From: Gammaproteobacteria bacterium
Lineage (GTDB): Bacteria; Pseudomonadota; Gammaproteobacteria; Pseudomonadales; Porticoccaceae
Direction of reading: 5' to 3'
DNA length: 64,000 nucleotides
Assembly (NCBI GenBank): GCA_018069465.1
Contig: JAGPUW010000010.1
Coordinates: forward strand, 1-64,000
The notes beneath the pieces were generated by a model that made no database searches, was not told the DNA's origin, and saw nothing but the letters and a program-made list of their open reading frames with translations. Each line of letters opens with the position of its first letter. Within the stretch, counting starts at the first letter, position 1. Made by a program: the position numbers and the translations under genes. Shown here one piece after another: positions 2,288-51,882 of this stretch.

Positions 2288-4168
2288 ATGTCAATTTTGC
2301 CCGTTATTGTTGGATACGGCGGTGTTAATCCCGCAGGAAGAAGCTCATTTGACCAGGCCTACAGGCGCATGGTGCTGGAAAGCCTGGCTCAGCAAGAGCA
2401 GGAAAAAACCATTGCCGGTCTGGCTTGCATGATGAAACTGGTTAGCTGGAATGGCTCGGCCTATGAGGACAGTGCTGGGAAAAGTCTCAGTATGAGTGAA
2501 GTTTCTGCGCGCTATTCTGCCGAGGTTTGCGATAAAACCTTGATCCGCCGCATAGAGTCACAGCACTACGACCCCGACGCGGCGTTTTGCCAGAAGACCC
2601 TGGTGACGGACTCCAGTGAAGAGGCGATGACGTTTCGCACCAGCAAAAAGAGTTTACCCGAGGTGTTGCCGCAAGGCTGGCAGGTCTCCGACGCGGTAGA
2701 TGGCGTGGTGGAAGTGACGATTAAGGGCGAGCAGGAGTGGCGCATTCCCACCACTCGCAATATGCCGGTGAAAGCGGCGGGCCAGTTGCCCAGCGGTTTT
2801 GAGCCGGGTGAACTCTACAATTCGCGTTTCCAGCCCCGTGGCCTGCAGTTGGCGCTGTTTGGCGCCACCGATGCGGTGCGCTCGATTGGCATTGACTGGC
2901 AAACTATTTGCGATGCGGTGCAGCCCGATGAGACTGGCGTTTACGCCTCCAGCGCTATGGGCCAGTTGGCCGATGAGGGCCTTGGTGGCTTGATGGCTTC
3001 GCGCCAGCTGGGTGGCCGGCCGACCTCAAAACAAGTGCCGATGGGTTTGACCAGCATGCCGGCGGATTTCGTTAATGCCTATGTGCTGGGCAATCTCGGC
3101 CATACCGAATCGGTGGCCGGTGCCTGTGCCAGTTTTTTATACAATTTGCGCGCGGCGGTGCACGATATTCGCAGCGGCGCCCGCCGTGTGGCGGTTGTCG
3201 GTTGTGGTGAGGCGCCTATATTGCCGGAGATTATGGAGGGTTATACCAACATGACCGCGCTGGCCACGGAAGCAGAAATGCAAGCTTTGGGCGATGGGGA
3301 CCCCCGCCGCTACAGCCGCCCCTTTGGTAAAAATGCCGGTTTTGTGATGGGCGAGTCGGCGCAGTATATTGTCTTGATGGACGACGCTCTGGCAATCGAA
3401 CTGGGCGCGGATATTTTTGGCGCTGTGCCCGATGTTCATGTCGATGCCGACGGCATTAAAAAATCAATCTCCGGGCCCGGGCCGGGCAACTATATTAGTT
3501 TTGGCAAGGCGGTTGCCACCGCGCGCAATATCCTCGGTGAGGATGTCGTGCGCCAGCGCAGTTTTGTGATGGCCCACGGTTCGAGTACGCCGCAGAACCG
3601 GGTCACCGAATCCATTATTTTTGAACGCATTGCGGAGGCCTTCGGTATTAGTGACTGGCCAGTGTGTGCGGTGAAAGCCTATGTTGGCCATTCACTGGCA
3701 CCGGCCAGTGGCGATCAAATCATGACCGCGATTGGTGCTATGCGCCACGGCTTGATTCCCGGTATTAAAACCATGGATGCCGTCGCGGACGATGTCTACC
3801 AGCAGCGCCTGCACTTCCCGCTAAAAGATTTAGCCGCTGAAAAGGATGTGGCTTTTATCAATGCCAAGGGTTTTGGCGGCAACAATGCGACCGGGGTGCT
3901 GTTCTCCGGCCGCGTCGCCGAGCAAATGCTCGCCAAACGCTACAGTGGCGTCTGGAGCGATTACTGCCAGCGCCGCGAGGCCACCCGCAAGCAGGCGGCA
4001 GACTATGAAGAGCGCGCTGATCGGGGAGAGCTGGCGCCAATTTACCGCTTCGGTGAAGGTGTGATTGGTGACGATGAAGTGTTGATTTCCGATCAGGCCA
4101 TCAGCCTGCCGGGCTACGGCAAGCCGGTGCCCCTTAAGGGCGAAAACCCCTACGACGATATGCTCTGA
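2288..4168 (+). CDS. fabY: FabY-like beta-ketoacyl synthase
   Basis: This 626-residue thiolase-fold enzyme matches the unusually long ketoacyl synthase called FabY in Pseudomonas, which starts fatty acid synthesis by condensing acetyl-CoA with malonyl-ACP in place of FabH. The Cys-His-His catalytic set is visible: Cys280 in VAGACASFLYN, His430 in MAHGSSTPQNRVTE, and His468 in VKAYVGHSLAPASGDQ. The ~180-residue N-terminal extension before the synthase core is characteristic of this group rather than of FabB/FabF. The gene stands alone with its own short leader, divergent from the GlxA-type regulator. FabY assignment is by length, motif context and remembered similarity; a polyketide-type synthase is the alternative. 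Confidence 0.75.
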   Translation: MSILPVIVGYGGVNPAGRSSFDQAYRRMVLESLAQQEQEKTIAGLACMMKLVSWNGSAYEDSAGKSLSMSEVSARYSAEVCDKTLIRRIESQHYDPDAAFCQKTLVTDSSEEAMTFRTSKKSLPEVLPQGWQVSDAVDGVVEVTIKGEQEWRIPTTRNMPVKAAGQLPSGFEPGELYNSRFQPRGLQLALFGATDAVRSIGIDWQTICDAVQPDETGVYASSAMGQLADEGLGGLMASRQLGGRPTSKQVPMGLTSMPADFVNAYVLGNLGHTESVAGACASFLYNLRAAVHDIRSGARRVAVVGCGEAPILPEIMEGYTNMTALATEAEMQALGDGDPRRYSRPFGKNAGFVMGESAQYIVLMDDALAIELGADIFGAVPDVHVDADGIKKSISGPGPGNYISFGKAVATARNILGEDVVRQRSFVMAHGSSTPQNRVTESIIFERIAEAFGISDWPVCAVKAYVGHSLAPASGDQIMTAIGAMRHGLIPGIKTMDAVADDVYQQRLHFPLKDLAAEKDVAFINAKGFGGNNATGVLFSGRVAEQMLAKRYSGVWSDYCQRREATRKQAADYEERADRGELAPIYRFGEGVIGDDEVLISDQAISLPGYGKPVPLKGENPYDDML

Positions 4169-45888: not shown

Positions 45889-46065
45889 GGGGGTGGAGCT
45901 TAGTCACCGAGTATGTCAGCGCAATAACAGTGTGGTGACGGGGCGATGACAGGAAAATACCGGAGAGCTTTGCCCCGAGCCTTAGCAACTGTTAGTTGCG
46001 AGATATTTGATGGTGATCAATGAGGGGTAGCGACATTGGTGTAGACTTTGCTCCAGATAGTTAAT

Positions 46066-46079
46066 TAAACGTTCGTTTA
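46066..46079. promoter_or_regulatory. Inverted repeat, possible operator
   Basis: Perfect 6-bp arms TAAACG and CGTTTA separated by TT end 11 bases before the -35 box of the predicted promoter. Short symmetrical sites of this kind are typical operators of TetR-family regulators, but no regulator is encoded nearby. Confidence 0.45.
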
Positions 46080-46090
46080 TCTGTAAGCTG

Positions 46091-46119
46091 TTGACATAAC
46101 TAGACAAAAGATAGATTAT
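46091..46119 (+). promoter_or_regulatory. Sigma-70 promoter of the monooxygenase gene
   Basis: A consensus TTGACA (46091-46096) and GATTAT (46114-46119) are spaced by 17 bases, about 95 bases before the start codon. Confidence 0.55.
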
Positions 46120-46215: not shown

Positions 46216-47709
46216 ATGGGCGTTGCTGAGAGTGGAAATATTGGTGCTACAGTTGCTGGCGGGAAAAGGAATCCTCGGGTAATTATTGTTGGCACTGGCT
46301 TGTCGGGTGTTTGCATGGGCATCCGTTTGATGGAAGCCGGCTTTACAGATGTCACCTTGTACGAGAAAGCCGGTGGCCTGGGCGGAACCTGGTATTACAA
46401 CTTTTACCCAGGACTGCGTTGCGATGTGCCGTCTTACTACTACCAGTACAGCTTTTCACCAAGCTCTAGCTGGAGCCACCGCTTCTGTGGTGGACCAGAA
46501 ATTCAGCAGTATTACGAAAACACTGCGAAAAAATACAATGTCTTCGAGCGCATTAAATTTAACAGTGAAGTGACCAACTCCGAGTTCCGTGGCGGCAAAT
46601 GGCACGTAGATCTGGAGAATGGCGATACGGATGAAGCGGATATCTTGATTGCCTGTTGCGGTATTTTGGTGCGACCAAAGTTCCCCGAAATTGAAGGCAT
46701 GGATGATTTTGAAGGCAAGATTCTGCACACCGCACTGTGGGAGAAGGATCTTGACCTGACGGGTAAAAATGTTGCGGTTATCGGCAATGGTTCTACCGGC
46801 ATTCAAATGATCAAGCCGCTGACGGACATTTGTAAGAAAGTGACTTCCTTCCAGCGCACTCCCCAGTGGATTGTACCGGTACCGAATCGCAAGTATTCCA
46901 AGCTCAATGAGAAGATGCTCACCACCTTCCCAGTCATCTCCAAAATTTTCCACCACTCCATAAGCTACTTTATGGAAACCATCATGGGCACGGGTGTGAT
47001 TAAAGATGGCCTGGCGAGAAAACTGGTCGGCAAGGCCTGTCAGTGGAACTTGAACACAGTCAAAGACCCCAAGCTGCGCAAGGCTTTGACCCCCGATTAC
47101 GTTGCCATGTGTAAGCGCCTGGTGATGTCGTCTGAGTTTTATCCGGCCATTCAACGGGACAATGCCGAGCTGGTCACAGAGCACATTGAGCGCTTTGAAG
47201 CCAAAGGTATTCGCACCAAAGACGGCGTCTTGCACGAGCTGGATGTGGTTGCTCTGGCGACCGGTTACTACGCTGGCGAGCACATGATGCCAATGACCAT
47301 GAGCGTTGAGAATGGCCCTACTCTCGAAGAGCAGTGGAAAGACGGCATTTATGGTTATCGCACCGTTGCCATGCCCGACTTCCCCAACTTCTTCATGGTG
47401 ATGGGCCCTAACAGCCCAGTGGGGAACTTCTCTCTGGCCGCGATTGCCGAAGTTCAGTCGGGTTACATCATGAACTTTGTTGAGAAGTGGGCCAATCGTG
47501 AATTTGAAAGGGTTAGCCCCAAGCGTGCTGCTACTGACCGTTTTGTTCAGGACATGAAAGACAATATGGAAGGAACTGTTTGGCTGACCGGTTGTGACAG
47601 CTGGTATCTGGACAAGAACGGCGTTCCCGTTTCCTGGCCCTGGACGGCGGGCAAGTTCCGTAATGATCTGAAAGTGCCAGACTACAGTGAGTATGAGATG
47701 GAGCGTTAA
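46216..47709 (+). CDS. Flavin-dependent monooxygenase, Baeyer-Villiger type
   Basis: The 497-residue protein has two nucleotide-binding sites: FAD site G-T-G-L-S-G at 26-31 and NADPH site G-N-G-S-T-G at 190-195. The Baeyer-Villiger signatures are present: G-G-T-W-Y-Y-N-F-Y-P-G-L-R-C-D (56-70), and F-E-G-K-I-L-H-T-A-L-W-E-K-D (165-178), a version of F-x-G-x-x-x-H-x-x-x-W with Glu after the Trp instead of Pro/Asp. Such enzymes insert oxygen next to ketones to give esters or lactones. AGGGAGTAACAG precedes ATG. It has its own promoter and terminator; the substrate is unknown. Confidence 0.88.
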   Translation: MGVAESGNIGATVAGGKRNPRVIIVGTGLSGVCMGIRLMEAGFTDVTLYEKAGGLGGTWYYNFYPGLRCDVPSYYYQYSFSPSSSWSHRFCGGPEIQQYYENTAKKYNVFERIKFNSEVTNSEFRGGKWHVDLENGDTDEADILIACCGILVRPKFPEIEGMDDFEGKILHTALWEKDLDLTGKNVAVIGNGSTGIQMIKPLTDICKKVTSFQRTPQWIVPVPNRKYSKLNEKMLTTFPVISKIFHHSISYFMETIMGTGVIKDGLARKLVGKACQWNLNTVKDPKLRKALTPDYVAMCKRLVMSSEFYPAIQRDNAELVTEHIERFEAKGIRTKDGVLHELDVVALATGYYAGEHMMPMTMSVENGPTLEEQWKDGIYGYRTVAMPDFPNFFMVMGPNSPVGNFSLAAIAEVQSGYIMNFVEKWANREFERVSPKRAATDRFVQDMKDNMEGTVWLTGCDSWYLDKNGVPVSWPWTAGKFRNDLKVPDYSEYEMER

Positions 47710-47730
47710 ACGCGACTGATCACCACTGCG

Positions 47731-47773
47731 ACCCGGGAGCCCACTCTATTGAGAAAGCCCCCGGGTTTTTTTT
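47731..47773 (+). terminator. Terminator after the monooxygenase gene
   Basis: ACCCGGG (47731-47737) pairs with CCCGGGT (47760-47766), followed by a run of Ts. The loop is 22 bases. Confidence 0.8.
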
Positions 47774-47897
47774 GCCTAAAAAATGACCGTGCAGTCGAAT
47801 TTGGTCGGGCGGTAGACCCTCGAAGCTTGGTGTTTACGGCGGGGAGTGGCTATGATGAGGCGACAACATTAATGAATAATATTCATGAGGGGGTAAA

Positions 47898-49283
47898 GTG
47901 TCTGGAATCATAAGTTACGGTGCTTACGTGCCGTATTATCGACTAACACGAAAGGCTATCGGTGGCGGCAAGGGTGAGCGAGCGATTGCCAGCCATGACG
48001 AAGATTCTGTGTCGATGTCTGTGGAGGCCGGGCGTGGCGCATTAGCGGCCAGCCCCGCCATTGATACGCTGGTGTTTGCGACGAATAGCGCGCCCTATGC
48101 CGAAAAGCTTAATGCGGCGGCGATCTGCTCGGCACTCGATTTATCGGCACAGGTTAATACCATTGAACTGGCGAATAATACGCGTATGGGCCTGGCGGCT
48201 TTATTACTCGGCACAGATCTTGGCAAAGCGGGGCGCACGTCTCTAGTGTGTGCCGGTGATGTTGTCATTGGCGCCCCGGGCGGTGCTCGCGAGCGCGACA
48301 GTGGTGATGCGGCGGTGGCCTTTGTCACCGGGCCTGAGAAAGACGCCATTGCCCGTGTTTTGGGGCGGGCGTCAACAACATCTGAAGTGCTCGATGTCTG
48401 GCGTTTGCCAACCGATCGCTTTGCCCGCCAGTGGGAAGAGCGTTTTGGTATCGAAGTCCTTGGCCCGGTCAGTATCGATACTGCCCAGCGGGCACTGGCC
48501 GATGCCAATGTGGCACCGGAAGAGTTGGCAACGGTGATTCTCGACGCGACCAATAGTCGTGATGTTGCCGGTATTCCCCGAGCCCTGGGCTTAAAGCCCG
48601 AGCAAGTGGCCGATATGCTGGCGGGCTCTGTGGGTCGCAGCGGTGTTGCCCATGCCGGTCTGGTACTGGCGCGGACTCTCGATGGGGCTCAGCCCGGCGA
48701 TAAAATCCTCGTATTGTCGACAGCCGATGGCTGCGATGCGGTAGTGCTGGAAGTGAGTGACAAGATTACCCAGGGTCGACCCCAGCGCAGCGTCGATCAG
48801 TGGCTGGCCTCCAGCAATAATGAGGTGCCCTACAATGCTTATTTAAAGTGGCGTGAAATTCTGCCCTTTGAGCCACCCCGCCGGCCCGATCCCGATCGCC
48901 CAGCGGCGCCCATTATGAAGCGCAATGAGCGCTGGAAGTATGCCTTTTATGGCAGTCGCTGTGGCAAGTGTGGTCAGGGCCATTTGCCACCACAGCGGGT
49001 GTGTCTCAAGTGTCGATCGATCGATGATATGGTTGACGAGCGCTTTGCCGATGCGGCCTGCAAAATAACCACCTACACCTTGGATCATCTGGCTTACAGT
49101 CTGCAGCCACCGGTTGTTTCCACCGTGGTGGACTTTGACTGCGGCGGGCGTCTGGCCTGCGAATTGACCGATGTTGATCCCGGAGACGTCGCCATTGGCG
49201 ATAAGCTGGAAATGACTTTCCGGCGTTTCTACACGGGTCAGGGTGTACACAACTATTTCTGGAAAGCACGACCACAGCGCTAG
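47898..49283 (+). CDS. HMG-CoA synthase-like protein fused to a DUF35 (Zn-ribbon/OB-fold) domain, catalytic Cys absent
   Basis: The 461-residue protein has an N-terminal thiolase-fold domain like HMG-CoA synthase (G-I-I-S-Y-G-A-Y-V-P-Y-Y-R; about 1-290) and a C-terminal DUF35 domain. A zinc ribbon has Cys355, 358, 369 and 372 (C-G-K-C and C-L-K-C), then an OB fold. The nucleophile position of this family should be Cys in an A-C-x-A-G run, but here it reads I-E-L-A-N-N-T-R-M-G (89-98), without cysteine. GTG 47898 follows GAGGGGG. It ends 9 bases before the thiolase gene. DUF35 partners in archaea and actinobacteria hold CoA for thiolases or aldolases, so a scaffold or acyl-CoA-channelling role is inferred. 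Confidence 0.85.
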   Translation: MSGIISYGAYVPYYRLTRKAIGGGKGERAIASHDEDSVSMSVEAGRGALAASPAIDTLVFATNSAPYAEKLNAAAICSALDLSAQVNTIELANNTRMGLAALLLGTDLGKAGRTSLVCAGDVVIGAPGGARERDSGDAAVAFVTGPEKDAIARVLGRASTTSEVLDVWRLPTDRFARQWEERFGIEVLGPVSIDTAQRALADANVAPEELATVILDATNSRDVAGIPRALGLKPEQVADMLAGSVGRSGVAHAGLVLARTLDGAQPGDKILVLSTADGCDAVVLEVSDKITQGRPQRSVDQWLASSNNEVPYNAYLKWREILPFEPPRRPDPDRPAAPIMKRNERWKYAFYGSRCGKCGQGHLPPQRVCLKCRSIDDMVDERFADAACKITTYTLDHLAYSLQPPVVSTVVDFDCGGRLACELTDVDPGDVAIGDKLEMTFRRFYTGQGVHNYFWKARPQR

Positions 49284-49292
49284 GGGTGATGT

Positions 49293-50477
49293 ATGGCAAG
49301 TAACGGAATTAAAGATCAAGTTGCAATCGTCGGCATGGGTTGTACGCCCTTTGGCGAACACTGGGACAAAAGTGCCGCAGATATGCTTATTGACGCGGCT
49401 GGGGACGCCTATAAATCGGCGGGCGTGGCGCCGGATGATGTCGATGCCTATTGGCTCGGCACCTTCGCCAGCGGTGTTTCCGGCATGGTGTTTTCCGAGG
49501 CTTTGAAAACACCGTATAAGCCGGTAACGCGACTGGAGAATATGTGTGCCACTGGCAGTGAGGCGATTCGCAATGCGGCTTATGCCGTGGCGAGTGGCGC
49601 CTACGACCTGGTGATGGCCGTGGGTGTTGAAAAACTGAAAGATGGTGGCTATTCAGGGCTGGTGATACCGGGGCCGGATGGCGACGGTACGGAATCGAGT
49701 ATGACGGCACCGGCGATGTTTTCACTGCTGGCTCCGGCCTACTGTGAAAAATACGGTGTCGGTGAAGGTGAGTTGAAAGATGTGCTGTCGCGCATCGCCT
49801 GGAAAAACCACGTTGCTGGGGCGAAAAATCCCAAAGCGCAATTCCGCAAGGAAGTGTCTCTCGAAAAAATCAGCAACTCACCCCGCGTGGCGGGTATGTT
49901 TGGCGTGTTTGACTGTTCGGGTGTTTCCGATGGTTCAGCCGCAGCGATTTTATGCCGAGCTGAAGATGCCTATAAATACACTGACAAGCCGATTTTCCTT
50001 AAGGCGCTGTCCGTTGCAGCGGGGCCAAACGAAGGCTTTATCAGCGACGAGTACGATTTCACCACCTTTCAGGAAGTGGTGGTCTCCGCTCAGGACGCCT
50101 ATAAGCAAGCCGGAATCACCAACCCGCGTGAAGAAATTTCGATGGCGGAAGTCCACGACTGCTTTACTGCGACCGAGTTGGTCTTGATGGAAGATATGGG
50201 CTTTTCCGAGCGCGGTGAGGGCTGGAAAGATGTTATGGAGGGCCGCTTCGACGGTGATGGCGCCCAGCCGATTAATCCCGATGGCGGTCTGAAAAGTTTT
50301 GGTCATCCCATTGGCGCTAGCGGTTTGCGGATGATGTACGAAATGTGGCTGCAGTTGCGCGGCGAAGCCGGTGAGCGTCAAATCGAGGATCCGAAGCTGG
50401 GTTTAACCCACAACCTGGGCGGTCAGCCGGGACGTTGTGTGAGCTTTATATCGATTGTGGGTCGGGAGCTGGGTTAG
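49293..50477 (+). CDS. SCP2-type thiolase
   Basis: The 394-residue protein is a thiolase of the sterol-carrier-protein-x type. The acyl-accepting Cys85 is in N-M-C-A-T-G. His288 and Cys290 of the H-D-C-F motif and His338 of G-H-P-I-G-A-S-G complete the active site used by SCP2 thiolases. These residues are absent in the related aldolases of steroid side-chain degradation, so a true thiolase activity (cleavage or condensation of a beta-ketoacyl-CoA) is expected. GGGGTGATGT precedes the ATG. It is coupled to the HMGS-like gene. Confidence 0.9.
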   Translation: MASNGIKDQVAIVGMGCTPFGEHWDKSAADMLIDAAGDAYKSAGVAPDDVDAYWLGTFASGVSGMVFSEALKTPYKPVTRLENMCATGSEAIRNAAYAVASGAYDLVMAVGVEKLKDGGYSGLVIPGPDGDGTESSMTAPAMFSLLAPAYCEKYGVGEGELKDVLSRIAWKNHVAGAKNPKAQFRKEVSLEKISNSPRVAGMFGVFDCSGVSDGSAAAILCRAEDAYKYTDKPIFLKALSVAAGPNEGFISDEYDFTTFQEVVVSAQDAYKQAGITNPREEISMAEVHDCFTATELVLMEDMGFSERGEGWKDVMEGRFDGDGAQPINPDGGLKSFGHPIGASGLRMMYEMWLQLRGEAGERQIEDPKLGLTHNLGGQPGRCVSFISIVGRELG

Positions 50478-50520
50478 GCATTGGTCATGTTTTGATACAA
50501 GGAGTTGCCGACTTTTAGTC

Positions 50521-50583
50521 GGCCATAAAAAACCCCGGTGACGCCCTTTTAAAGAGGTGAGTTGACCGGGGTTTTTTATGGCC
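50521..50583. terminator. 19-bp perfect hairpin terminator between thiolase and rho
   Basis: Arms at 50521-50539 and 50565-50583 are fully complementary over 19 bp, with A-run and T-run sections, around a 25-base loop. It can stop both convergent transcription units. Confidence 0.92.
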
Positions 50584-50622
50584 TGTGAAACGTGCGATTA
50601 CAGGCGCTGTGTCGTGTTGGCG

Positions 50623-51882
50623 TTATTTGCGTTTCATTGCCGCGAAAAAAGCATCGTTGCTTTCAAAGCTCTTCAGTCGATCGATGATGAATTCGGTTGC
50701 CGCCGTATCTTCCATATCGTTGAGGAGCTTGCGCAGTATCCACACCCGCTGCAGATCAGCTTCGTTCATCAGCAGGTCTTCTCGGCGCGTGCCGGAGCGG
50801 CGAATATTGATGGCGGGGTAGACGCGCCTTTCGGCGATCTTGCGGTCGAGGTGCAATTCCATATTGCCAGTACCTTTAAATTCCTCGAAAATTACTTCGT
50901 CCATCTTCGAGCCGGTATCGACCAGCGCGGTGGCAATAATGGTCAAGCTGCCACCCTGTTCAATATTGCGCGCAGCACCAAAGAAACGCTTGGGTTTTTC
51001 CAGCGCGTGGGCATCGACACCACCGGTTAACACTTTACCGGAGGATGGCACCACGGTGTTGTAGGCACGGGCCAGGCGGGTAATGGAGTCGAGGAGGATG
51101 ACGACATCTTTTTTGTGTTCAACCAGGCGCTTGGCTTTTTCAATCACCATTTCCGCCACCTGAACATGGCGGGCTGGTGGCTCATCAAACGTTGATGCCA
51201 CGACCTCGCCACGCACAGTGCGCTGCATTTCGGTCACTTCCTCAGGGCGTTCATCGATCAACAAGACGATGATGATGCACTCGGGGTTATTGCGCACAAT
51301 GGACTGAGCTATGTGCTGCATCATGATGGTTTTACCGGCTTTTGGCGGTGCCACAATCAAGCCTCGCTGGCCTTTGCCAATGGGGGCAACCAGGTCGATG
51401 ATGCGACCGGTTAAATCTTCTGTGCTGCCATTGCCCGATTCGAGAGTCATGCGCTCGTCGGGGAACAGAGGTGTTAAGTTTTCAAAGAGGATTTTGTTGC
51501 GGGCATTTTCCGGGCGGTCTAAGTTGATTTGGTCAACTTTAAGCAGGGCGAAGTAGCGCTCGCCCTCTTTGGGTGGTCTGATCTTGCCAGAAATACTGTC
51601 GCCGGTGCGCAGATTAAAACGACGAATTTGACTGGGTGACACATAAATATCGTCCGGTCCCGCTAAATAAGAACCGTCAGATGAGCGCAGAAAGCCAAAA
51701 CCGTCGGGGAGGATTTCCAGCACACCGTCACTGTAAATATCTTCGCCGCTTTTTGCGTGGCGCTTGAGGATAGTAAAGATAATATCCTGCTTGCGTAAAC
51801 GGCCGAGATTCTCGAGGCCGGTTTCTTCGCCGATTTTAATCAGCTCATCAATAGGTTTTGTCTTAAGATCAGTCAGGTTCAT
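50623..51882 (-). CDS. rho: Transcription termination factor Rho
   Basis: The 419-residue RNA helicase ends unprotected transcripts. The N-terminal RNA-binding domain runs [10 protein letters not shown], then G-F-G-F-L-R. The ATPase core shows A-P-P-K-A-G-K-T (Walker A), [11 protein letters not shown] and the Q-loop and R-loop segments [11 protein letters not shown]. Length matches E. coli Rho. A long leader precedes it. Confidence 0.97.

Follow-up and report, generated by a model that had tools for sequence, protein, structure and literature searches.

A Baeyer-Villiger monooxygenase (BVMO) gene, a gene that fuses an HMG-CoA-synthase (HMGS)-like domain to DUF35, and an SCP2-type thiolase gene lie in a row in the window, the 64,000-nucleotide stretch of DNA analysed here (contig C39 of a 3.6-Mb genome; among named genomes, those most closely related to it are MAGs from Gammaproteobacteria, one of which carries the label Porticoccaceae). 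Do these genes form one pathway cassette, as the first-pass annotation proposed, and what might a synthase-like domain joined to DUF35 do beside a thiolase? The features of the locus are:

46065..46079, no strand: candidate operator, inverted repeat TTAAACG(T/A)TCGTTTA, just 5′ of the BVMO -35 element
46091..46119, + strand: candidate BVMO promoter, TTGACA-17-GATTAT (consensus scan, 10/12)
46216..47709, + strand: type I BVMO, 497 aa, a separate transcription unit outside the conserved core (ORF, family and fingerprint matches)
about 47730..47773, + strand: intrinsic terminator of the BVMO gene (-21.3 kcal/mol, z -3.6, T8 tail)
47898..49283, + strand: HMG-CoA-synthase-like/DUF35 fusion, 461 aa, GTG start (ORF, family-model, PDB-sequence and fold matches)
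49293..50477, + strand: SCP2-type thiolase, 394 aa (ORF, Thiolase_C_1/Thiolase_N matches, catalytic residues)
50521..50583, no strand: strong near-symmetrical (bidirectional) terminator that separates the thiolase gene from convergent rho (-42.1 kcal/mol, z -7.1)

The identities first given to the three genes were borne out by family and PDB matches. The BVMO carries both type I fingerprints, GGTWYYNFYPGLRCD at 56 and FEGKILHTALW at 165 (motifs GGxWxxxxYPGxxxD and FxGxxxHxxxW), and two Rossmann motifs; the short motif ends in E, where P or D is expected. The nearest solved structures are cyclohexanone and steroid monooxygenases, characterised type I enzymes with which it shares fingerprints and Rossmann motifs, although it is only remotely similar to them. 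Residues 2-322 of the fusion match archaeal HMGS (synthase-like domain, about 1-320), and the C-terminal domain (about 343-461) is assigned to the DUF35/ChsH2 family by a zinc ribbon (349-374) and an OB fold (389-442). The four zinc cysteines (Cys355, 358, 369 and 372) are invariant in 53 sequences. PDB sequence matches of the fusion are 6esq_I, PhlA and, for the DUF35 half, 6esq_E. The thiolase has Cys85, His288 in the SCP2-thiolase motif HDCF, His338 in GHP, and Asn374, and 75 of 76 partner thiolases retain Cys85, His288 and His338. Its best PDB match is the archaeal acetoacetyl-CoA thiolase 6esq_A. As in that enzyme, Asn374 stands where classical thiolases have their second catalytic Cys, so that the reaction could run towards condensation or cleavage.

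The BVMO gene had been credited with its own promoter and terminator. The terminator stands, with a T tract and 3′ arm conserved across the genus, whereas the promoter match is, by count in the consensus scan, not above chance; its region is nevertheless conserved, TTGACA and GATTAT being kept in 6/6 aligned genus members. The upstream inverted repeat is likewise present in 6/6 aligned genus members and absent from the sister genus. It is a candidate operator, TetR-type by look only. A genome search for co-regulated genes found only one perfect 15-base site; the other match spans 12 bases and falls within a gene whose product resembles a CoA-transferase.

By ORF coordinates, exactly 9 bases separate the fusion stop from the thiolase start, as annotated, and 188 bases separate the BVMO gene from the fusion. 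The terminator at the 3′ end of the fusion-thiolase pair is common to the convergent rho gene. Most of the proteins scanned around the three genes have housekeeping roles (cytochrome oxidase, SpoT, coaBC, FtsY/FtsX, a sigma-70 factor, glutamate-cysteine ligase), and so the context names no pathway; no beta-oxidation-type genes were found near the pair within the window. Elsewhere in the window, positions 2288-4168 encode a 626-aa protein in which beta-ketoacyl-synthase domains are the only ones detected; it is unusually long for a FabB/F-type enzyme.

The conserved unit and the place of the monooxygenase

Across 84,980 species genomes, scanning returned at least 592 pattern matches, with at least 574 confirmed relatives, and neighbourhoods were read at the best 80 named-genome loci of the latter, which contain 85 fusion genes. 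A thiolase lies directly downstream of 78 of the 85 fusions at these best 80 loci among the matches listed, in agreement with the pairing that had been anticipated. Of the seven fusions that depart from this, three lie at contig ends (L088, L091, L129), and at two others (L104, L149) the thiolase is not adjacent but within about 3.4 kb. Two Blastocatellia fusions (L098, L099) have no nearby thiolase; the synthase residues discussed below are lost there as well. Host phyla at the best 80 loci include Chloroflexota, Myxococcota, Binatota, Bacillota, Thermodesulfobacteriota, Acidobacteriota and others, and one host is an archaeal MAG. Among 368 other gammaproteobacterial genomes sampled, 10 matched, with nine fused homologues and one unfused live HMGS (L174); a thiolase adjoins every fused homologue bar one, which is on a truncated contig. 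Within the window's family, three genera have the fusion, and all keep the adjacency to thiolase and rho wherever the contig reaches, with the BVMO or without it. The fusion-thiolase arrangement is no chance juxtaposition, and these two genes, not three, form the unit.

Two further observations concern the family. The pair's place beside rho and trxA (47898-51882 in the window) is kept in the genera that have the pair, while the upstream side varies. In one genome (G030, 87% complete; L048:6501-9600 and L160:9007-10742) the fusion is split over two frames and the BVMO appears as two ORFs, reflecting either sequencing error or decay.

The BVMO is a local neighbour and not part of the conserved core. 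It stands beside the pair at only 4 of the best 80 loci among the matches listed, all of them in close gammaproteobacterial relatives. The gene-neighbourhood check suggested in the first-pass annotation thus found a monooxygenase only rarely beside the homologues of the fusion and thiolase, which, with the BVMO's own terminator and its separate location in genus g5, tells against a three-gene cassette. In g5, a sister genus, the BVMO orthologue, 66-70% identical, is on a different contig from the pair, and no consistent pathway emerged from its neighbours there (a TauD-type dioxygenase, a GST and a two-component system). No BVMO is present at the nearest pairs of other families (G057, G214, G324, L075). 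Many pair hosts are anaerobes, for example Desulfotomaculum and Syntrophobacterales, and an oxygenase cannot belong to the pair's system in these.

A single ketone pathway, in which the BVMO converts a ketone to an ester and the acyl part is then handled as a CoA ester by the pair, would account for the adjacency of all three genes in 7/7 genomes of the window's genus and in two of the three from genus g12, the remaining one (G034) being interrupted there by a contig end. It would also fit the finding that a BVMO orthologue (at least 60% identity) occurs in all but one of the pair-bearing family genomes and in none without the pair. On a glutamate-cysteine ligase tree, however, this distribution takes two changes for the pair and three for the BVMO, giving at most two independent comparisons; with only 2-3 gain or loss events needed, it carries no statistical weight, and is compatible with coupling without showing it. 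Given also that the conserved inverted repeat precedes the BVMO only, and that the BVMO is absent from 76 of the best 80 loci among the matches listed, we consider a joint ketone pathway improbable, and reject the cassette as a general unit on the neighbourhoods, the g5 location and the small number of events. In one genome (G017, L044:215-6552) the genes 5′ of the BVMO encode an acyl-CoA dehydrogenase, an APH-type phosphotransferase, a zinc alcohol dehydrogenase, two SDRs and a histidine phosphatase; at L161 a similar group of genes occurs without the fusion-thiolase pair.

Loss of the synthase residues and a proposed complex

Catalytic columns of the synthase half were referred to the Methanothermococcus thermolithotrophicus HMGCS, and included His238, which we take to be a catalytic position from general knowledge of HMG-CoA synthases. 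The numbering was confirmed: the 6ESQ sequence shows Glu82 and Cys114 at the other two columns, and PhlA shows Cys83 and Gly115, as published. Glu82 and Cys114 are key residues of the archaeal enzyme (PMC6392133). At the Glu82, Cys114 and His238 columns the window fusion carries Asn, Thr and Asp, and none of 102 distinct fusions, collected with a pattern drawn from the window's own fusion family, has the synthase Glu, Cys or His at the respective position. The unfused gammaproteobacterial HMGS recovered by the same search (L174) served as a positive control: all three motifs are intact, and it adjoins ORFs that by eye resemble mevalonate kinase and isopentenyl-diphosphate isomerase. Judged by these residues, the synthase half of the fusion looks catalytically dead, a point absent from the first-pass annotation. 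An AlphaFold2 model of the fusion is a single confident two-domain body (pLDDT 93.4, pTM 0.94), whose fold, compared with the PDB, is most like that of the HMGCS chains in 6ET9/6ESQ, followed by PhlA and MucABC.

The same genome contains a second, diverged fusion-thiolase pair, about 31% identical, on contig C6 (L049, G000:C6:80000-97000). Its operon also encodes acyl-CoA dehydrogenases, an MFE2-type MaoC hydratase, an SDR, an enoyl-CoA hydratase and a CaiB CoA-transferase, and these neighbours supply the other steps of a beta-oxidation round. Homologues of this second pair occur in several families of the order. A beta-oxidation-type gene also lies within a few genes of the pair at 29 of the best 80 loci among the matches listed. 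Together with the second copy, this leads us to propose that an inert partner shapes the CoA and acyl site of the thiolase. Against the proposal, those loci are a minority of the 80, and the pair in the window has no such neighbour.

We put at roughly 0.55 the probability that the apparently dead synthase-DUF35 scaffold and the thiolase form a single complex, related as a bacterial version to the archaeal and PhlABC complexes, that cleaves an unusual 3-ketoacyl-CoA. The gene identities, the loss of synthase residues, the retention of thiolase residues, the conserved pairing and the confident two-domain fold are observed; from these we infer complex formation, the role of the dead domain, the direction and the substrate. 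Fusion and thiolase would be the two subunits. The chemistry would be done by the thiolase, with Cys85 acylated and His288, His338 and the HDCF cysteine acting as acid-base. The DUF35 half may bind the thiolase and dock the synthase-like half onto it, and the latter, a putative pseudoenzyme, would contribute part of the CoA-binding groove and the acyl-chain pocket. The reaction is most likely a catabolic thiolysis, with a 3-ketoacyl-CoA that is awkward to cleave (branched, cyclic or bulky) as substrate; the BVMO, separately transcribed, could supply this catabolism, though it does not have to.

Other functions for the pair were weighed against this proposal. Transfer of the acyl group from Cys85 to a carbon nucleophile instead of CoA, as by the C-acyltransferases PhlABC and MucABC, would suit the three-part make-up, with a dead HMGS-like part lacking Cys and Glu and a thiolase-like part that has its Cys, and the fold matches of the fusion to PhlA and MucABC. 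Against it, the thiolase scores 214 bits with the archaeal acetoacetyl-CoA thiolase and 111 bits with PhlC, the paralogue is located in a beta-oxidation operon, and no biosynthetic cluster surrounds the genes. A search of the window's genome for a type III polyketide synthase (PhlD-type) found none, which speaks against a phloroglucinol-type route and led us to reject that pathway; acyl transfer to carbon is unlikely, though the least so of the alternatives considered. A thiolase fold with a DUF35 partner also recalls the aldolase complexes of steroid side-chain degradation (Ltp2 or Sal with its DUF35 partner). These aldolases lack both the nucleophilic Cys and HDCF (Gly and YDCY in Sal, YDHF in Ltp2; PMC12329534), whereas the window thiolase keeps both, and the fusion carries no MaoC hydratase domain, so that an aldolase role would be surprising. 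Family models name the two proteins as an HMG-CoA synthase and an acetoacetyl-CoA thiolase of the mevalonate pathway, an arrangement shared by archaea, but this role is already contradicted by the missing synthase Glu, Cys and His, and by the live HMGS with all three motifs and mevalonate-type neighbours. The window's genome has no HMG-CoA reductase and does have DXR, and the pair is therefore not for mevalonate synthesis; we give an active synthase almost no credence and regard the role as ruled out.

The proposal of thiolysis by a complex with an inert synthase domain may extend beyond this host. We suggest tentatively, as a possibility, that across this large multi-phylum family (at least 574 matches) DUF35-fused pseudo-synthases make the partner SCP2 thiolase cleave bulky or branched acyl-CoAs, a dead condensing enzyme having become a catabolic specificity subunit. 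Chloroflexota, Myxococcota, Binatota and Desulfotomaculum relatives commonly carry HMGS-DUF35 fusions, which also occur in a few percent of Gammaproteobacteria and match HMG-CoA synthase models. Should the synthase half prove dead in all of them, HMG-CoA synthase names mislead pathway reconstructions by supplying false mevalonate genes, and the pair would offer a ready test of how a condensing enzyme, once decayed, can act as a subunit for specificity or scaffolding. As to the cassette question, the outcome is that the BVMO is removed from the core.

Comparison with known systems

The first-pass annotation knew of no characterised system with this exact content, and the literature searched, which took in few subscription papers, likewise yielded none: no characterised HMGS-DUF35 fusion, no two-gene form in which a dead synthase is fused, and no system of a BVMO with an SCP2 thiolase. 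The arrangement it had described, a DUF35-synthase fusion beside a thiolase, holds, but is less odd than was thought, as the same three parts, two of them joined here, make up the archaeal complex and PhlABC. Fusion of DUF35 to thiolase-superfamily members was already noted in the 2010 SSO2064 paper. Parts and arrangement are thus known from archaea and PhlABC, and the fused, apparently dead synthase in a two-gene form appears uncharacterised.

By sequence and fold, all three components of the archaeal thiolase/HMGCS/DUF35 complex (Methanothermococcus, 6ESQ/6ET9) are encoded together in the window, with synthase and DUF35 in one chain. Thiolase Cys85 and the catalytic histidines are kept, whereas HMGCS Glu82, Cys114 and His238 are lost, and the window's host has no mevalonate use for the pair. 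The acyltransferases PhlABC (PpATase) and MucABC (5M3K, 9VBO) resemble the pair in combining a DUF35 part and an active thiolase-like part with a dead HMGS-like part (PhlA). In PhlABC the Cys and Glu of PhlA are lost and acyl transfer is done by PhlC residues only (PMC6392133). PhlABC differs in being encoded by three separate genes, two of whose parts are joined in the window; the archaeal enzyme is the nearer relative of the window thiolase, and neither PhlD nor a biosynthetic cluster is present there.

The catabolic side of the proposal has its parallels in BbsAB (benzoylsuccinyl-CoA thiolase), ChsH1-ChsH2-Ltp2 and Shy-Sal, in which DUF35 is the partner of a thiolase fold in acyl-CoA catabolism; unlike the window fusion, these systems have no HMGS-like domain. 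In Shy-Sal and ChsH2-Ltp2 the thiolase-fold partner is bound through the DUF35 domain (PMC12329534, PMC11321319), and the MaoC domain of ChsH2 provides an earlier example of an inert domain whose shape suits a bulky acyl-CoA (PMC11321319).
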